Assembly (NCBI GenBank): GCA_000143165.1
Contig: CP002084.1
Span: 806,001 to 870,000, forward strand
Length of the DNA stretch: 64,000 nt
DNA from: Dehalogenimonas lykanthroporepellens BL-DC-9
GTDB taxonomy: Bacteria; Chloroflexota; Dehalococcoidia; Dehalococcoidales; Dehalococcoidaceae
Direction of reading: 5' to 3'
A program made the position numbers and the translations under genes. The notes below the pieces were generated by a model. It searched no databases. It had not been told where the DNA came from and saw nothing but the letters and a program-made list of their open reading frames with translations. Positions within the stretch are counted from its first letter, which is position 1. Each line of letters begins with the position of its first letter. Of the stretch, positions 2,209-38,092 are shown piece after piece.

Positions 2209-3447
2209 TCAGATGGAACTCAGCGCCATAGCCAGCATAACGGCGGCCATGACAATGGCCAGATTAATGACCACCAGCAGGGTTATCCAGGTGCCGCTGG
2301 TCAGCTTCCTGACAACGGCCTTGAAAAGGGCTTCCTCGGCCTTTTCCAAAGCCTGTTTGGAAGCCTGAGAAGCGGCTTCAGCGATTTCTTGCGCCCGCTG
2401 AGCGGCCTGGTCGGCGTGGGCCTGGGCGGCCTTGGAGACCTCGGCGGCGGCCACCCTGGCCGACTGCCCGGCGCTTTCGGCCCGCTTGATCATATCCTGA
2501 AGTACACCCAGCGCGGCGTGAATGGCATCATCGCCGGCCTTATCGGCGTTTTTAGCCGCGGTAATGGCGTCATCAGCGGTTTTATGTCCGCCGGTGGCGG
2601 CGGCGACAGAAGCCTTGCCGGCTTCTTCGGTTTTGCCGGAGATTGCATCGGACACCTTGCCGGCGGCCTCGACAGCGTCAGCACCGACCCGTTCCGCCAG
2701 TTCGGTCTTCCGGGCAACTTCTTCGGCCAAGTGATAGGCCTGGCTGGCGGCCAGTTTAGCCTTGCGGCCGGTTTCATCGGCCTGTCGCGCCGTTTCGTTG
2801 GAGGGGTTTTGCTGAGCGGCTTTGGCGGCTATCTGAGCTTCAGTCGACGCGGCATCAGCGGTCTTGACGGTTTTGGTGGCTTGAGCGATGGTTTCTTCCA
2901 GCGACTGCCTGGCGGCCAGCGCCAGTTCCTGAAGTTTGATTGCGTTTTCTTCGGCTGACCGGTTGAGAGCCATTGAAGCTTCGCGGGCGGCCATGGCTAC
3001 TTCTTCGGCTTTAGAAGAAGCCTCTTCGGCGGCATATTTGGCGGCACGAGCGACCTCCTCAGCGCGATGGGCGGCTTCTTCGGCCCGGGCGGAGGCTTCG
3101 TCGGCGATGCGGGAGGCCTCCTCAGCCTTGTGTGAAGCTTCGCTGGAAGCGTGGTCAGCGCCTTCAGCCTTGTGGGCGGCTTCCTCAGCGGCTTCCTTGG
3201 CTTCGGCGGCGGCGTGAGCCGCGGCCCGGGTAGCTGATTCAGCGGCATCTTCGCCCGCCTTTCGCGCTTCTTCGGCGCGTTTCTCGGCTACCAGCGAAGC
3301 CTTGGTGGCGGCATCAGCCGAGTTACCGGCACTTTTGGCGGCCTCTTCGGCCTTCTTGGCGGCTTCGGCGGCGGCGCGGATACTGGCATCCATCTCGTCC
3401 AGTATCTGGGGCAGTGGCTTAACCAGGATATTAGGCTCAGTTACCAT
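2209..3447 (-). CDS. Alanine/glutamate-rich coiled-coil protein with C-terminal membrane anchor
   Basis: Function unknown. Residues about 20-370 are almost entirely a heptad/undecad-like repeat of AEEAA, KAEEA and ARxAxE units, rich in Ala, Glu and Lys. This predicts a very long uninterrupted amphipathic helix or coiled coil, reminiscent of LEA or apolipoprotein-like low-complexity helices. The last 25 residues (about 386-410, TWITLLVVINLAIVMAAVML) form one transmembrane helix ending close to the C-terminus, so the bulk is probably a rod tethered as a tail-anchored protein. There are no cysteines and no signal peptide. The ATG start has an AGGAGGT site 4-5 nt upstream. The opposite strand has long open frames only because of the repetitive GCC/GCG composition; those are artefacts. 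Confidence 0.85.
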   Translation of the reverse strand: MVTEPNILVKPLPQILDEMDASIRAAAEAAKKAEEAAKSAGNSADAATKASLVAEKRAEEARKAGEDAAESATRAAAHAAAEAKEAAEEAAHKAEGADHASSEASHKAEEASRIADEASARAEEAAHRAEEVARAAKYAAEEASSKAEEVAMAAREASMALNRSAEENAIKLQELALAARQSLEETIAQATKTVKTADAASTEAQIAAKAAQQNPSNETARQADETGRKAKLAASQAYHLAEEVARKTELAERVGADAVEAAGKVSDAISGKTEEAGKASVAAATGGHKTADDAITAAKNADKAGDDAIHAALGVLQDMIKRAESAGQSARVAAAEVSKAAQAHADQAAQRAQEIAEAASQASKQALEKAEEALFKAVVRKLTSGTWITLLVVINLAIVMAAVMLAMALSSI

Positions 3448-3698: not shown

Positions 3699-4430
3699 TT
3701 AAACCGAAGACAGAACCCCACCCTGAATCCCGAGAGTAATTTCTTCCACCGGAATTTGGAGTCCGGCCTTAACAATAGCCTTACGGACGAGCCAGGTAAG
3801 CCCGCCGCAACAGGGGACTTCCATCCGCAGAACGGTAATACTGGCCGGCCGGGCCTGCTGAATAATCTGAGTCAGTTTGTGAAGGTAGGCTTCGGTATCA
3901 TCCAGCTTGGGACAGGCGATCAAAAGTGACTTGCCCTTCAGAAAGTCCTGATGAAAATCAGGGTAGGCAAAGGGGGCGCAATCGGCCGACAGCAGGAGAT
4001 TGGCATTTTTAAGGAATGGCGCGTGCGGCGGCACCAGCGTCAGCTGAACCGGCCAGCTGGTCAACGCTGAAGCCTGCCGGGAACGCTCAGTGTCAGCAGG
4101 TTGGGCCGACGGGGTTCCTTCAAAGTCCCTCAACCGGGCCGATGGGCAGGAATGGGGTACCGAGTGGTGGGCCTTGGGCGACGGCTGTTCGGCGGCCACA
4201 TGTGCCATGGCGGCGGCCTCGTCGAATTCCGGGGCTTCTCTATCTTCAATAGTAATGGCGTCCATGGGACATTCACCGAGACAGGCGCCCAGTCCGTCAC
4301 AAAAAGTGTCGCTGACCAGCCTGGCCTTGCCGTCAATAATTTGGATGGCGCCTTCGGCGCAGGACGGGACGCACAACCCGCATCCGTCGCATTTTTCTTC
4401 ATCGAACTTCACGATTTTCCTGACCGGCAT
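3699..4430 (-). CDS. 4Fe-4S ferredoxin-domain protein (243 aa)
   Basis: An N-terminal bacterial ferredoxin domain (residues about 1-75) holds CDGCGLCVPSC (CX2CX2CX3C) and a second cysteine set, CDGLGACLGECP. A C-terminal half of about 100 residues follows, carrying cysteines in ADCAPFAYPDF, LLIACPKLDD and VPCCGGLTWLV that could bind further metal. The family is common in anaerobes and its substrate is unknown to me; a cytoplasmic electron-transfer or redox-sensing role is inferred. The frame stays open upstream to 4586, but the ATG at 4430 has an AAGGAG site and the ferredoxin domain starts there (MPVRKIVKFDEEKC). It begins 1 nt after the stop of the zinc-ribbon gene, so the two are translationally coupled. 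Confidence 0.85.
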   Translation of the reverse strand: MPVRKIVKFDEEKCDGCGLCVPSCAEGAIQIIDGKARLVSDTFCDGLGACLGECPMDAITIEDREAPEFDEAAAMAHVAAEQPSPKAHHSVPHSCPSARLRDFEGTPSAQPADTERSRQASALTSWPVQLTLVPPHAPFLKNANLLLSADCAPFAYPDFHQDFLKGKSLLIACPKLDDTEAYLHKLTQIIQQARPASITVLRMEVPCCGGLTWLVRKAIVKAGLQIPVEEITLGIQGGVLSSV

Positions 4431-4431
4431 T

Positions 4432-4680
4432 TCAATGTTCTCCTTTTTCTGTAAAATGTTGCCCAAGCTCTTTCCAACGGTCTTCACCCAGACATTGCCT
4501 GGCGGAGACGCACCACTCAATACAGGATGGTGTTTTCTCCCGGAAGACCTTTTCCCCGCACATGTGGCAGACCACCCGGGTTTCATCAGAAAAGATTTCC
4601 ACTTCGGTGCGGCAGGCCGGGCACCGGTGCAGTTCCACTTTCAACCGCCGGGTATCCTGTCCGGGACACTGTTGTTTCAT
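4432..4680 (-). CDS. Small zinc-ribbon / cysteine-rich protein (82 aa)
   Basis: This 82-residue protein has two CXXC knuckles (CPAC near 20-23, CHMC near 38-41) typical of a zinc ribbon. A second cysteine group follows, CIEWC then C (CVSARQCLG), which could form another metal site. I do not recognise a named family. The ATG is preceded by GGAGGAAACTC. It is the first gene of a two-gene operon with the downstream ferredoxin protein and lies directly behind the Crp/Fnr gene. An FNR-like palindrome 55-68 nt upstream suggests that regulator controls it. The pairing implies a shared redox or metal-related task. Confidence 0.8.
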   Translation of the reverse strand: MKQQCPGQDTRRLKVELHRCPACRTEVEIFSDETRVVCHMCGEKVFREKTPSCIEWCVSARQCLGEDRWKELGQHFTEKGEH

Positions 4681-4706
4681 GAGTTTCCTCCAGGATTCAA
4701 TGACTC

Positions 4707-4748
4707 ATTTTAATCCCTGGGAGAGCCGGACAACATGATTTAAATCAA
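4707..4748 (-). promoter_or_regulatory. FNR/CRP-type operator and class II promoter
   Basis: The palindrome at 4735-4748 reads ATGAT-TTAA-ATCAA, one mismatch from the FNR consensus TTGAT-N4-ATCAA; its inner 12 bp are a perfect palindrome. On the minus strand a -10 box TAAAAT lies at 4712-4707, predicting a start site at 4700. The palindrome centre (4741.5) is then at exactly -41.5, the class II activator position. The site sits in the 68-bp gap between the Crp/Fnr gene and the zinc-ribbon gene. Confidence 0.65.
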
Positions 4749-5432
4749 TCAGCCGGTACCGGGCGGCCCTTCGGCCAGCAGGCGAAGCCGGTCCAGGTCT
4801 TCAATGGTGACCTGTCCCCGCTTGGAAGAAATGATGCCGCCTTCTTTCAACCGGCTGAGAAACCTGACAGTTGTTTCCAGGGTTGTGCCCGACATGTCTG
4901 CCAGGTCCTGACGGGTAAACGGCAGTTCGGGTCCCAGCTTGTCGGTCAGGCGTTCCAGCGTGCGGGCCAGTCTCTGGTCCACCCGTTCGCCGGCCAGATC
5001 ATGAAGCCGGCTCTGGGCTTCCCGAAGACGGGCGCTGAGAATACCGACCAGGGCCAGAGCCAGGGCCGGATGTGATTTGATAAACGATTGAAACTCCACC
5101 CTGTCCAGCACCATCACGGTACAATCCTTCACCACGACGCAGGAGGCTGGATAGGGTTTGTTCTCCAGTACGGCCACTTCGCCGAAAACCTCTCCCGGCT
5201 GGAAAAAGGCGACCACGGTTTCCCGCCCGGCATTGCCATGTTTGACGACCTTGACCCGACCTTCGGTAAGCAGGAAAAACCGGTCCGGGCGGTCACCCTC
5301 CCAGAAGATATATTCACCGGCGGCGTAACGCCGAAAAGTCGCCTTGGCGACGATATCGTCCAGTTCGGCGTCTCCAGCCGGCTCGAACAGAAACGAGTGG
5401 CGTAAAGCCCGGCGCAGTTCCACATTATCCAA
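4749..5432 (-). CDS. Crp/Fnr-family transcriptional regulator
   Basis: The 227-residue protein has a cyclic-nucleotide-binding fold (about 15-130, with PGEVFGEVAVLENKPYPASC), a dimerisation helix, and a winged helix-turn-helix (about 165-220). The recognition helix contains LETTVRFLSRL; its Glu and Arg occupy the positions that read TGA half-sites in CRP and FNR. The N-terminal cysteine cluster of E. coli FNR is absent (only two cysteines, near residues 95 and 101), so it is not an FNR-type [4Fe-4S] oxygen sensor; the ligand is unknown. The gene overlaps the upstream QueG-like gene by 8 bp, and an FNR-like box lies directly after its stop codon. Confidence 0.93.
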   Translation of the reverse strand: MDNVELRRALRHSFLFEPAGDAELDDIVAKATFRRYAAGEYIFWEGDRPDRFFLLTEGRVKVVKHGNAGRETVVAFFQPGEVFGEVAVLENKPYPASCVVVKDCTVMVLDRVEFQSFIKSHPALALALVGILSARLREAQSRLHDLAGERVDQRLARTLERLTDKLGPELPFTRQDLADMSGTTLETTVRFLSRLKEGGIISSKRGQVTIEDLDRLRLLAEGPPGTG

Positions 5433-6676: not shown

Positions 6677-7852
6677 ATGAAACTAGTAGTGGTCGGACTC
6701 GGCCAGGCCGGCGGCCGCATCGCCGATGAATTCGCCCGGATAGCCATCAAAGTCAGACAGGACCGGGGACTGCGCATCGTCACCGACATTCTGGCCGTCA
6801 ATACCGATTCCGCTGACCTGTCTTCCCTGGTGAAGGTCAAAAAGGATATTCAGCACCGGATACTTATCGGTACCGGGCAGACTCATGGCCACGGTGTCGC
6901 CAAGATATCCGAAATGGGCGCCGAAATCGCCAAGAGTGAAAAAGACAATGTTATCGGCATCGTCAAGAAAAACGAAAGGTTTTACGAAGCGGATGCCATT
7001 CTCCTGATAGCCTCCGGGGGAGGCGGCACCGGTTCGGGAACCCTGCCGGTCATGGCTCAGGCTTTCAGGGACAGTTTCCGGGATAAACCGGTTTATGCCA
7101 TGGTCGCTCTACCCTATGACCACGAACGGCAAACAGAAGAAAGAGCCGTTTTCAATACCGCGATGTGCCTCAAGTCAACCCGAGATGTCACCGATGCCAT
7201 TATTCTGGTGGATAACCAGCGTTTCATCCGGAAATCCCAGTCATTGGCCAGCAATTTCCAGAAGATAAACGAACTTATCGTAGCGCCATTCTATAACCTT
7301 CTGGCCGCCGGTGAGGAAAAGAACCCCAAATTCATCGGCACCTCGGTGCTGGACACCGGCGACATCAAGGAAACGCTCAACGGCTGGACCGGTATCGGTT
7401 ATGGCACGGTTGACGTCGATATCATTCCCAAGTTCCGCGGTGAAACCAATTATCTTAGAAAGAATCTCGAATCCCAGCGCGGCCTTTACGCCCTCGACGA
7501 AGCCCTGGCGGAGATGTCGGTCAGTCTCAACCCGGTCGATGCCGGGCGGGCCGCTCTTCTGGTTTCCGGGCCGGCCAAGGAGCTGAGCGTCGATATGGTG
7601 GGCGACCTTTCGGCGCGCCTGCGGGAAGTGGCGCCCTCGGCCCAGCAAAGGCTGGGCGATTACCCAAGGGAACGCGGCATCATTGACGTGAGCGTCATTC
7701 TTTCGGAATTGTCCGACATTGCCATACTGCGCCGTTTCTTTGAAGATTCCAAGGAACTGGCGGCCGAATTCCAGGAACGGCAGAAACTGCGCTCGGTCAA
7801 GACCGATCTCACCGAAGAAGCGGCCCGGGACGTGCCCTCCCTGCTGGATTAG
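6677..7852 (+). CDS. FtsZ/tubulin-superfamily GTPase, paralogue 1 (391 aa)
   Basis: The N-terminus is a glycine-rich nucleotide-binding start (VVGLGQAGGRIADEF). The tubulin/FtsZ signature GGGGTGSG is at residues 114-121. The segment LDTGD (225-229) aligns with the FtsZ T7 loop NxDxxD and keeps both catalytic aspartates (D226, D229), but has Val in place of the Asn. The protein ends in DVPSLLD, similar to the FtsZ C-terminal peptide core DIPxFL. It is colinear without gaps over about the first 230 residues with a second copy at 36780-37958. It is not canonical FtsZ; cytoskeletal polymer formation is inferred. It is a single-gene unit with its own promoter and a hairpin after it. The cellular role is unknown. 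Confidence 0.85.
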   Translation: MKLVVVGLGQAGGRIADEFARIAIKVRQDRGLRIVTDILAVNTDSADLSSLVKVKKDIQHRILIGTGQTHGHGVAKISEMGAEIAKSEKDNVIGIVKKNERFYEADAILLIASGGGGTGSGTLPVMAQAFRDSFRDKPVYAMVALPYDHERQTEERAVFNTAMCLKSTRDVTDAIILVDNQRFIRKSQSLASNFQKINELIVAPFYNLLAAGEEKNPKFIGTSVLDTGDIKETLNGWTGIGYGTVDVDIIPKFRGETNYLRKNLESQRGLYALDEALAEMSVSLNPVDAGRAALLVSGPAKELSVDMVGDLSARLREVAPSAQQRLGDYPRERGIIDVSVILSELSDIAILRRFFEDSKELAAEFQERQKLRSVKTDLTEEAARDVPSLLD

Positions 7853-34661: not shown

Positions 34662-35675
34662 ATGAATAACATCGGTATTACCACGACAGTACCCATTGAG
34701 GTCATTCTGGCGGCGGGTAAACAGCCGATGGACCTGAACAATATATTCGTCAATTCCCCTGAACCGGCAAAACTGATCACTATAGCTGAAAATGACGGCT
34801 TTCCGCTGAATACCTGCGCCTGGATAAAAGGAATATACGGAGCGGTACACGAACACAACATCACCGATGTTGTCTGTGTCACCGGGGGTGACTGCTCCAA
34901 TACGCAGATACTGATGGAAGTACTGCGTTTCAAGGGCATCAAAGCTATTCCTTTTTCTTTTCCGGATGCACCCTGTGGGGTGAAAATGAACGCAGAAAAC
35001 ACCCGATTCGCCGAGATGCTGGATACTACTCTCGATGCGGCAGAAGCACAGCGTGCCGGATTGCAGCCTGTCCGCGACAGACTTCAGGAACTTGACCGTC
35101 TGACCTGGCAGGAGAACCGTGTCAGCAGTTGGGAAAACTACTCGTGGCTGGTGTCATCATCCGACTTTAATGGAAATATCGAGGATTATTCTGCAGAGCT
35201 GAAGAATTTTTTACGCTCAATAGCACAGCGTCCGCAATTTCCTGAAACCGACATCCGACTTGGTTTGACCGGAGTGCCGCCGATATTTGCCAAGGGCCTT
35301 CTGTCATATCTGGAACGTTTCGGCGCCAGAGTGGTATTCAACGAAATACCTCGTCAGTTTTCCATGCCGTTCAAATCAGCAGACCTGGGAGAACAGTACG
35401 CTTCTTACACTTATCCTTATTCGATGAAAGACAGGTTGAACGATATCTCCGGGGCGATTGCGGAAAGGAAAATCGAGGGCGTAATTCACTATGTACAGTC
35501 TTTCTGCCATCGAGCCATAGGTGATATACTGTTACGGCATGAACTTACGGTTCCTGTATTGACCATTGAGGGGAACAGCGACACGGAAATTTCCCAGCAC
35601 CTGAAAACCAGACTGGAAGCCTTCGTCGACATGTTACAGTTCAAAAAACAGAAAAGAGAGGTAAGTCAATGGTAA
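34662..35675 (+). CDS. 2-hydroxyacyl-CoA dehydratase D-family (HgdB/BcrC-like) Fe-S protein
   Basis: The 337-residue protein resembles one subunit of the 2-hydroxyacyl-CoA dehydratase family: an N-terminal GITTTVPIEVILAAG start, cysteines in LNTCAWIKG, VTGGDCSNT and QSFCHRAIGD, and a C-terminal LTIEGNSDT. Such proteins carry an unusual [4Fe-4S] cluster and receive electrons from an ATP-driven activator. No partner subunit or activator lies nearby, so a different reaction is possible. It sits 6 nt after eno and overlaps gap by 7 bp. Confidence 0.83.
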   Translation: MNNIGITTTVPIEVILAAGKQPMDLNNIFVNSPEPAKLITIAENDGFPLNTCAWIKGIYGAVHEHNITDVVCVTGGDCSNTQILMEVLRFKGIKAIPFSFPDAPCGVKMNAENTRFAEMLDTTLDAAEAQRAGLQPVRDRLQELDRLTWQENRVSSWENYSWLVSSSDFNGNIEDYSAELKNFLRSIAQRPQFPETDIRLGLTGVPPIFAKGLLSYLERFGARVVFNEIPRQFSMPFKSADLGEQYASYTYPYSMKDRLNDISGAIAERKIEGVIHYVQSFCHRAIGDILLRHELTVPVLTIEGNSDTEISQHLKTRLEAFVDMLQFKKQKREVSQW

Positions 35676-36682
35676 CCAGAATCGGCATCAACGGATTCGG
35701 ACGCATTGGGCGTCTGGCGTTGCGTTCGATGAAAAAATATCACCCGAACGAACTCGAAGTTGTCGCTATAAACGACCTGGCAGATACCGCGACCAACGCC
35801 CACCTGTTGAAATACGATTCGTCCCACGGTATATACAACGGAAATGTCAGCGCTGACCAGGATTCCATCCACGTCGACGGCACCCGGATCAGAGCTTTTT
35901 CTGAAAAAGACCCGGCTAAAATACCATGGGGTGATTACGGCGTCGATATCGTCATCGAGTCAACCGGGCGGTTTACCGACCGTGATAAAGCGGCATGGCA
36001 TCTGAACGGCGGCGCCGGACGGGTAATAATCTCCACCACTTCGGCCACCGCAGATATTACCGTAGTCATGGGAGTCAATCACCACAACTACCGGCCTGAA
36101 GCTCACCGGGTTGTTTCCAATGCTTCATGCACCACTAACTGCGTCACCCCTATGGTCAAGGTCGTCTTCGATAAATACGGCATAGAAAAAGCGCTCATCA
36201 ATACTGTCCACGCGTATACCAATGACCAGAGCCTGCTGGATATCTTCCATAAAGATCTGCGTCGAGCCAGGGCCGCCGGGCTCAATATCATACCGACAAC
36301 TACCGGTGCCGCCAAAGCGGTCGCCCAGGTAATACCGGAACTGAAGGGACTGATACACGGCATATCGCTCAGAGTGCCGGTCGGTAACGTATCCATCGCC
36401 GATGTGACCGCTGTGGTCGAGAAAAACGTCACCGCGGAGATGGTCAACCAGGAGTTGAAAAAGGCGGCCGAAGGCGAACTCAAAGGAGTCATGGCCTACT
36501 GCGAGGAACCGCTGGTCAGTTCAGATTTCAAAGGCCACCCGGCAAGTTGTATCATTGACGCCTCTTCAACGATGGTGCTGGCCGACAATATGGTTAAGAT
36601 TCTCGGCTGGTATGACAATGAATGGGGATACGCTACCAGGCTGGGTGATCTGGCCGCTTATATGGGCACCAAATCCGAATAA
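35669..36682 (+). CDS. gap: Glyceraldehyde-3-phosphate dehydrogenase, type I
   Basis: The 337-residue enzyme has the NAD-binding start RIGINGFGRIGRLALR, the catalytic cysteine in SNASCTTNCVTP, and WYDNEWGYATR at the C-terminus. It catalyses the reversible oxidation of glyceraldehyde-3-phosphate. Coupled by overlap to the HgdB-like gene. The start ATG is preceded by AGAGAGG. Confidence 0.97.
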   Translation: MVTRIGINGFGRIGRLALRSMKKYHPNELEVVAINDLADTATNAHLLKYDSSHGIYNGNVSADQDSIHVDGTRIRAFSEKDPAKIPWGDYGVDIVIESTGRFTDRDKAAWHLNGGAGRVIISTTSATADITVVMGVNHHNYRPEAHRVVSNASCTTNCVTPMVKVVFDKYGIEKALINTVHAYTNDQSLLDIFHKDLRRARAAGLNIIPTTTGAAKAVAQVIPELKGLIHGISLRVPVGNVSIADVTAVVEKNVTAEMVNQELKKAAEGELKGVMAYCEEPLVSSDFKGHPASCIIDASSTMVLADNMVKILGWYDNEWGYATRLGDLAAYMGTKSE

Positions 36683-36779: not shown

Positions 36780-37958
36780 ATGAAACTTATAGTTGTCGGG
36801 CTGGGTCAAGCCGGTAGCCGGATTGCCGACGAATTTGCCAAAATCAATAAAAGAGCTAAAAGCCAGCGGAATATAGAAATCTGCCCCGGTATCTTTGCGG
36901 TGAACACTGATGCCGCCGACCTTACCGGGCTGACGACCATTGAACCCGATTATCAGCATCGGATTCTTATAGGTGGTCGCAAAACCGGAGGACACGGTGT
37001 TGGTAAAATCAACGAACTGGGTGCCGAAGTAGCCCGGGCTGATGCCGATAAAGTCATTGACGCGTTGAGAACAGCAAAGCATTTTTACGAAGCCGACGCG
37101 TTCCTCCTGGCCGCCAGTACCGCCGGCGGTACCGGTTCGGGTTCCATTCCGATCATTGCCCAGAGGATCAAGGAAAGATACCCGGAAAAACCGCTTTATT
37201 CCCTGCTGGCTCTGCCTTTCGAGCATGAAAGAGATACGGAAGAGAGAGCGTCGTACAACTCCGCGGTCTGCCTGAAATCCGTATACTCCATTTCCGATTG
37301 TGTTTTTCTCATTGATAACCAGCGTTATGTCATGAAAGATTCTTCCCTGGGGAATAATATTTCCCGGATCAATGAAATGATTGTCGAGCCGTTCTATGAC
37401 CTGCTTTGCGCCGGTGAGGAAAAAAATCCCCGGTTCATTGGTGCCAAAACATTGGATGCTGGCGATATCATCCAGACAATGTCCGGCTGGTCGGTTTACG
37501 GCTGGGGTCATGCTGACCTGAGCAAATCCTTCAATCTATTCGAACGAAGCAACGATTTCCGCAAGAAGGGAGCCGAAACTCACAAAGGCATTCAAGCCAT
37601 GGACGAAGCCATAAGCGAAATGTCATTGAGAGTGAATCCCAAGGATGCCGGACGCGCCATCTACCTGGTATCCGCACCTGCCAAGGAAATGAACATGGAC
37701 ATGATGCGGGAACTGAATGAATGGATGAGAGAAATGTGCCCCAACGCCATCATTCGAAACGGTGATTATCCCCGTGGATCGAATCGTATCTCCATCACCG
37801 TCATTCTTTCGGAGCTTTCCGATGTCGAAAAGGTGCGCAATTTCTATTCCGATTCCATCGACCTGATTCCGGTTATCAAGCAACGCCAAAGCGAATTACG
37901 CAATAAACTTGGCGATATCGACGACATGAGCCGCGACATCCCTTCCCTTCTGGAATAA
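36780..37958 (+). CDS. FtsZ/tubulin-superfamily GTPase, paralogue 2 (392 aa)
   Basis: This is the second copy of the FtsZ-like GTPase, colinear with the first without gaps through residue 230. It has VVGLGQAGSRIADEF at the start, the G-box TAGGTGSG (114-121), TLDAGDI in the T7-like loop with D226 and D229, and a C-terminal DIPSLLE. The long arm KSFNLFERSNDFRKKGAET differs from copy 1. The strong ribosome binding site AAGGAGG precedes the ATG. Flanked by its own promoter and a strong terminator, it is a single-gene unit. Role unknown; heteropolymerisation with copy 1 is plausible but untested. Confidence 0.85.
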   Translation: MKLIVVGLGQAGSRIADEFAKINKRAKSQRNIEICPGIFAVNTDAADLTGLTTIEPDYQHRILIGGRKTGGHGVGKINELGAEVARADADKVIDALRTAKHFYEADAFLLAASTAGGTGSGSIPIIAQRIKERYPEKPLYSLLALPFEHERDTEERASYNSAVCLKSVYSISDCVFLIDNQRYVMKDSSLGNNISRINEMIVEPFYDLLCAGEEKNPRFIGAKTLDAGDIIQTMSGWSVYGWGHADLSKSFNLFERSNDFRKKGAETHKGIQAMDEAISEMSLRVNPKDAGRAIYLVSAPAKEMNMDMMRELNEWMREMCPNAIIRNGDYPRGSNRISITVILSELSDVEKVRNFYSDSIDLIPVIKQRQSELRNKLGDIDDMSRDIPSLLE

Positions 37959-37974
37959 ACAAGGAATATAGTAA

Positions 37975-38010
37975 GAAAAGGACTCTCATCAAGATGAGAG
38001 TCCTTTTCTT
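37975..38010 (+). terminator. Terminator of FtsZ-like gene 2
   Basis: GAAAAGGACTCTCATC and GATGAGAGTCCTTTTC form a 16-bp stem with a very short loop; the 3' arm ends TCCTTTTCTTT, serving as the U-tract. Confidence 0.85.
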
Positions 38011-38092
38011 TACCTGAAGCCCGGGGTCAAGTAAAATGCACTCATGTCACACTTGCGTGCGTTTCCCTCTTTTTCGAAGAGAGTATCTCTGA

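Follow-up and report, generated by a model that had tools for sequence, protein, structure and literature searches.

The window, a stretch of 64,000 nucleotides from Dehalogenimonas lykanthroporepellens BL-DC-9, contains two genes for tubulin-like proteins, paralogues A and B (Table 1). Both proteins score above the Pfam cut-offs for the Tubulin (33 bits) and CetZ_C (21.6 bits) domains, with 2.4e-33 (116.4 bits) and 5.4e-18 (65.5 bits) for paralogue B and 2.2e-27 (97 bits) and 1.5e-15 (57.5 bits) for paralogue A. On the FtsZ equivalog model TIGR00065 they reach 61.7 and 68.7 bits, far under the cut-off of 295.2 bits, while the two true FtsZ of the same genome score 421 and 404. The AlphaFold2 model of paralogue B (pLDDT 87.9, pTM 0.87, 108 aligned rows) retrieved CetZ1, CetZ2 and the M. 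thermophila CetZ as ranks 1-3 of a PDB fold search, with target TM of 0.91, 0.90 and 0.78, respectively; the model of paralogue A has a pLDDT of 85.2. The nearest solved sequence to the window proteins is Haloferax volcanii CetZ1 (4b46). According to these domains, FtsZ scores and fold matches, both window proteins are bacterial CetZs, a type known mainly from archaea. A sequence-only reading of this DNA had noticed an FtsZ-like C-terminal peptide on both paralogues; the CetZ identity was absent from it.

Table 1. Features of the two cetZ loci, in window positions.
Feature	Position	Strand	Remark
CetZ-type tubulin, paralogue A, 391 aa	6677..7852	+	ends ...EEAARDVPSLLD
C-terminal peptide DVPSLLD, residues 385-391, paralogue A	7829..7849	+	predicted coil after helix
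GAPDH-like gene, usual upstream neighbour of cetZ	35669..36682	+	named by recognised sequence
CetZ-type tubulin, paralogue B, 392 aa	36780..37958	+	ends ...DMSRDIPSLLE
Intact GTP-binding loop GGTGSG, residues 116-121, paralogue B	37125..37142	+	
Predicted helix bearing the peptide, residues 363-385, paralogue B	37866..37934	+	sequence variable, length fixed
C-terminal peptide DIPSLLE, residues 386-392, paralogue B	37935..37955	+	predicted coil, last-block pLDDT 57

A search of the genome (a single contig of 1,686,510 bases) found a third CetZ paralogue at contig positions 568303-569469 (locus L015, 4250-5473), which ends ...EESFKDIPSLL. The organism has three CetZ copies and two true FtsZ. No CetZ was found in the phage collection, nor outside Dehalococcoidia in a sample drawn from the phylum, where the 22 of 350 genomes with a match all lie within the class or nearer. 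Dehalococcoidia CetZ-like sequences have already been named, in one phrase of the excerpted text of Santana-Molina et al. 2023 (PMC9871819). The window proteins belong to the same group; those excerpts treat the C-terminal domain and do not mention the terminal peptide. In the literature on CetZ, Dehalococcoidia, Chloroflexota and FtsA, mostly non-subscription texts, no description of the CetZ tail was found.

In 79 loci, gap lies directly upstream of 49 of 109 plus-strand cetZ genes and dnaX directly downstream of 49 of 109. Other neighbours are Ala-rich coiled-coil proteins that we label CC6 and CC7: CC7 is found directly downstream of 29 of the 109 genes and CC6 directly upstream of 22, and one or both are present in 34 of the 79 loci. 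One locus (L106) holds a CetZ that is missing from the gene map through the greedy choice of ORFs. In many loci two Ala-rich coiled-coil genes, convergent with each other, lie between two cetZ copies; the coiled-coil genes beside cetZ gave no useful Pfam match. The third cetZ of our genome faces, in convergent orientation, a gene for an Ala-rich coiled coil of 758 aa, and neither window copy is directly flanked by CC6 or CC7. cetZ adjoins ftsZ in one of the 79 loci (L053), as an FtsA-FtsZ-CetZ tandem on one strand. We also observed that two Ala-rich coiled coils, at window positions 2209-3447 (minus strand) and at 4145-4945 (minus strand) of locus L014, share a near-identical C-terminal transmembrane stretch, one being near a CetZ and the other beside an FtsA-FtsZ pair. 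Just past the stop of paralogue B, a GC-rich inverted repeat followed by a T-rich run (37975-38012) looks by eye like a terminator.

The endings DVPSLLD and DIPSLLE that had been reported for the paralogues are read in both window ORFs, and the third copy ends in DIPSLL. Moreover, the tail is conserved across orthologues and paralogues. We aligned Dehalococcoidia homologues in 108 rows, keeping the best 80 of 148 relatives, so that the alignment is biased toward near relatives. In this alignment Pro388 is present in 108/108 rows, Leu390 in 107/108, Asp386 in 98/108 and Leu391 in 98/107, and residue 389 is Ser or Thr in all 108. Mean entropy in the same rows is 0.44 bits over the tail (residues 386-391), against 2.07 in the stretch just before it (358-384) and 0.97 in residues 1-345. 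Among these best 80 of 148 relatives, CetZ pairs with a core identity of 55-65 % are 26 % identical in the linker and 88 % in the tail; for the most distant pairs (core below 45 %) the values are 14 % and 40 %. A CetZ set drawn by genome served as a check on the alignment, and there the tail is present by pattern in 43 of 52 main-clade copies.

The 117 tails are encoded by 98 different nucleotide strings. Since the codons vary freely, selection acts on the peptide, as had been proposed from the window alone, and a constraint at the DNA level on this region is ruled out. A chance ending is also ruled out, by the conservation and by 507 control ORFs of at least 150 aa from the fetched loci and the window, among which the sole match is a CetZ cut at the edge of L108. 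Five sites in the 1.69-Mb genome match the DNA pattern for Asp-hydrophobic-Pro-Ser/Thr-Leu/Phe-hydrophobic: three encode the CetZ tails, a fourth the C-terminal peptide of an FtsZ, and the fifth falls in no in-frame ORF of at least 60 aa. The reversed control pattern also has five sites, so what the sites are is informative and how many there are is not. The tail observation holds, and is stronger than first stated.

The tail had been described as following a short variable linker. The variable part of this description stands for the sequence and fails for the length, as the spacing between Pro331 and Pro388 is identical in 105 of 108 CetZ (best 80 of 148 relatives) and a helix is predicted. 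In the model of paralogue A the helix spans residues 349-384 and is followed by coil; in both models the last seven residues are low-confidence coil that is not packed on the protein's own domain. Given the constant spacing and the helix in both models, the peptide appears to be carried by a helix rather than by a flexible tether.

Presence of the tail follows the state of the GTP-binding loop. Of the 45 main-clade copies in the genome-drawn set whose GGTGSG is intact, 43 have the tail by pattern and two have degraded versions (GVPVF in L191, DLPKLE in L037); none of the seven main-clade copies with a broken loop has it. The Fisher test gives p 2.7e-7, a statistic that ignores relatedness; the tree needs at least two losses with broken loops, so the true support for the link is two events. 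Two groups on the tree have a broken loop and no tail: one lies within the genus of our organism (G083, G307, G377), and the other consists of second copies from families f15, f57 and f65. The joint loss would be explained by a tail useful solely on a working filament, although two events are few. In three genomes of the genus (L039, L203, L204) the sole CetZ has GGTAAG for GGTGSG and no tail; it is likely a tubulin deficient in GTP binding whose ORF has stayed intact. A deep group (L040-L045 and L202) lacks the tail and has an intact loop in most members. L040-L045 form a second, tail-less group of CetZ-like Dehalococcoidia proteins, which clusters in the tree with haloarchaeal CetZ and the long-branched L202. 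Decaying copies were also seen: a CetZ gene with an in-frame stop (L206, G450), and a 101-aa CetZ fragment (L190, around 4962) beside full copies (G146).

The FtsZ C-terminal peptide (DIPxFL / PAFLR) is a ligand of FtsA, ZipA, SepF and others. In the excerpts of a survey of FtsZ tails, proline is almost universal in bacteria, the bacterial motif being PAFLR and the archaeal one GID (PMC8178401). Each of the 38 Dehalococcoidia FtsZ carries such a core at its C-terminus, DVPSFL being the commonest form, with Arg after it; those of our organism end in DVPSFLR and EIPAFLR. We built a profile from these 38 peptides and scored 151 CetZ (rows of at least 380 aa, six haloarchaeal included). The best-fitting hexamer falls within the last 12 residues in 133 of the 151, and the mean best score is 19.6 for CetZ tails and 4.2, with a maximum of 5.5, for shuffled tails (200 shuffles). 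The tails of our three copies score 21.7 and the rest of each protein at most 11.7. Moreover, 141 of 155 CetZ fit.[ILV]P[STNV][LV][LIFDEGS], which is the FtsZ core except for Phe to Leu. FtsZ rows were dropped before these counts, as were the 101-aa fragment (from the tree and the tally) and the haloarchaeal rows (from the 155).

The two peptides thus resemble each other in an Asp/Glu-hydrophobic-Pro-Ser/Thr-hydrophobic-Leu core that ends a tubulin-family GTPase, clear of the core fold. However, in nearly all CetZ tails Leu replaces the Phe of FtsZ, and the core is not followed by Arg or Lys, whereas all 38 FtsZ have Arg. The CetZ peptide is also the very end of the protein, lacking any variable tail beyond it, and it is borne by a predicted helix of fixed length where FtsZ has a disordered linker of variable length. 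The profile match and the conservation favour the initial FtsZ-like interpretation; Leu for Phe, the missing basic residue and the fixed helix speak against it. No co-variation between genomes is visible at the residue after the proline (A/S/T/P in FtsZ, S/T in CetZ).

FtsA was matched in 41 of 42 Dehalococcoidia genomes searched. In the class sample, split by hand from the result tables, it is present in 23/23 genomes with a tailed CetZ and also in 7/8 genomes whose CetZ are all tail-less, so the presence of FtsA does not predict the tail. In our organism there are two FtsA, and an FtsZ lies just downstream of each (two complete pairs, L014 and L016); two FtsZ are found in 11 of 39 genomes searched. 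Both FtsA have SHS2 and FtsA domains and hydrophobic-basic C-terminal ends. According to the excerpts of a review, FtsA binds the FtsZ peptide, and its amphipathic end binds the membrane (PMC5832921). SepF, which had been put forward as a partner, has no match in any of the 42 genomes, our organism included, and matches in 7 of 14 control genomes; it is not supported as the partner of the tail. No MinC was found in our genome, and MinD matches there are below the curated cut-off only. Of the canonical receptors for FtsZ tails, FtsA alone was found. The FtsZ-like reading is plausible and narrows to FtsA; coiled-coil partners and a role in filament assembly are still serious alternatives.

We consider it very probable that the CetZ tail is a partner-binding short linear motif on a filament subunit, and evenly balanced whether its putative partner is FtsA. 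CetZ would polymerise with GTP, and the filament would present the peptide many times over, each copy on a rigid C-terminal helix. This peptide would then dock in the groove of FtsA that takes the FtsZ peptide, and the amphipathic C-terminal end of FtsA would hold the CetZ filament at the membrane. FtsZ and CetZ, two tubulin systems, would share one actin-like anchor. It is tempting to extend this proposal to the whole class, with FtsA anchoring FtsZ and CetZ via a shared peptide code, CetZ being wired into, or competing with, a divisome without SepF, and the tail being an old trait whose code follows the anchor of each domain. We regard this wider scheme as possible, while leaning somewhat against it.

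Archaeal CetZ bear on this point. The excerpts of PMC9856176 call CetZ archaea-specific and mention that the C-terminal tail of CetZ1 and of CetZ2 carries negative charge. H. volcanii CetZ1 (HvCetZ1, PDB 4b46) has the closest fold to the window proteins, shares the CetZ_C domain, and has at the same alignment place a short C-terminal peptide with an invariant Leu (DELESLF, GELDPLF). In all six plasmid-encoded CetZ of haloarchaea that were read, the C-terminus is [DE]L[DE]xLF, in register with the bacterial tail; H. volcanii CetZ1 ends DELESLF, and the aligned place reads ELDPLF or ELESLF. The archaeal tails differ in being acidic and without proline, the identity is about 31-34 %, and on the profile they score 2.8-5.3 versus about 21.7 for the bacterial tail. 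Moreover, H. volcanii, part of the 14-genome control panel, has a SepF match and no FtsA match. A CetZ tail thus need not mean FtsA, and may have existed before FtsA took any part: either an older tail changed its partner, or bacterial and archaeal tails arose separately.

The tail could instead bind a partner specific to CetZ, most likely CC6 or CC7, its likeness to FtsZ reflecting hydrophobic-proline chemistry or shared descent of CetZ tails. The CC genes that flank many cetZ, the coiled-coil gene convergent with our third cetZ and the haloarchaeal CetZ1 tail without an FtsA match agree with this view, and coiled-coil genes near other CetZ-like proteins appear in the excerpts of PMC9871819. 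However, the same tails are found in gap-dnaX copies of cetZ without CC genes nearby, neither window copy has CC6 or CC7 directly beside it, and the match to FtsZ peptides is much closer for the bacterial tail than for the haloarchaeal CetZ tails. We hold a CetZ-specific partner to be rather unlikely, and an action of the tail within the filament to be less likely still. In the latter case the tail would dock on a neighbouring CetZ subunit or on its own core and control assembly. The C-terminal tails of PhuZ and TubZ are said to control filament assembly, and so is that of B. subtilis FtsZ in the excerpts of PMC12747378. The fixed spacing from the core would suit a defined reach, and loss together with the GTP loop suits assembly as well, but the monomer models leave the tail as low-confidence coil, several lineages add residues past the core, and assembly does not predict a match to FtsZ peptides.

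These added residues also bear on a further reading, in which the free carboxyl group marks a degradation signal or a PDZ-type signal at the C-terminus. Among the best 80 of 148 relatives, 96 of 108 CetZ end three residues past the proline, stopping at Leu-Leu as such a signal would have it, 11 add one residue (D, S, Q, E) and one is shorter. Further residues are nevertheless common (LLE, LLED, LLS, LLD and LLQ, and ISSDGH or IASDAK after LPSL) and would block a signal read in this way, which makes it highly improbable. In the excerpts of PMC11165654, CetZ1 with a fluorescent protein at its C-terminus is anything from inactive to almost fully active, depending on tag and linker; the active fusions indicate that CetZ1 does not strictly require a free carboxyl end.

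To our knowledge, CetZ has so far been regarded as a family of archaeal proteins for cell shape, and we know of no membrane anchor for it. An FtsZ-anchor-like peptide on a bacterial CetZ offers a direct and cheap test of the route by which CetZ filaments would reach the membrane. The same test asks if one anchor serves several tubulin systems of a cell, and the parallel tail of haloarchaeal CetZ1 extends it to the best-studied CetZ.
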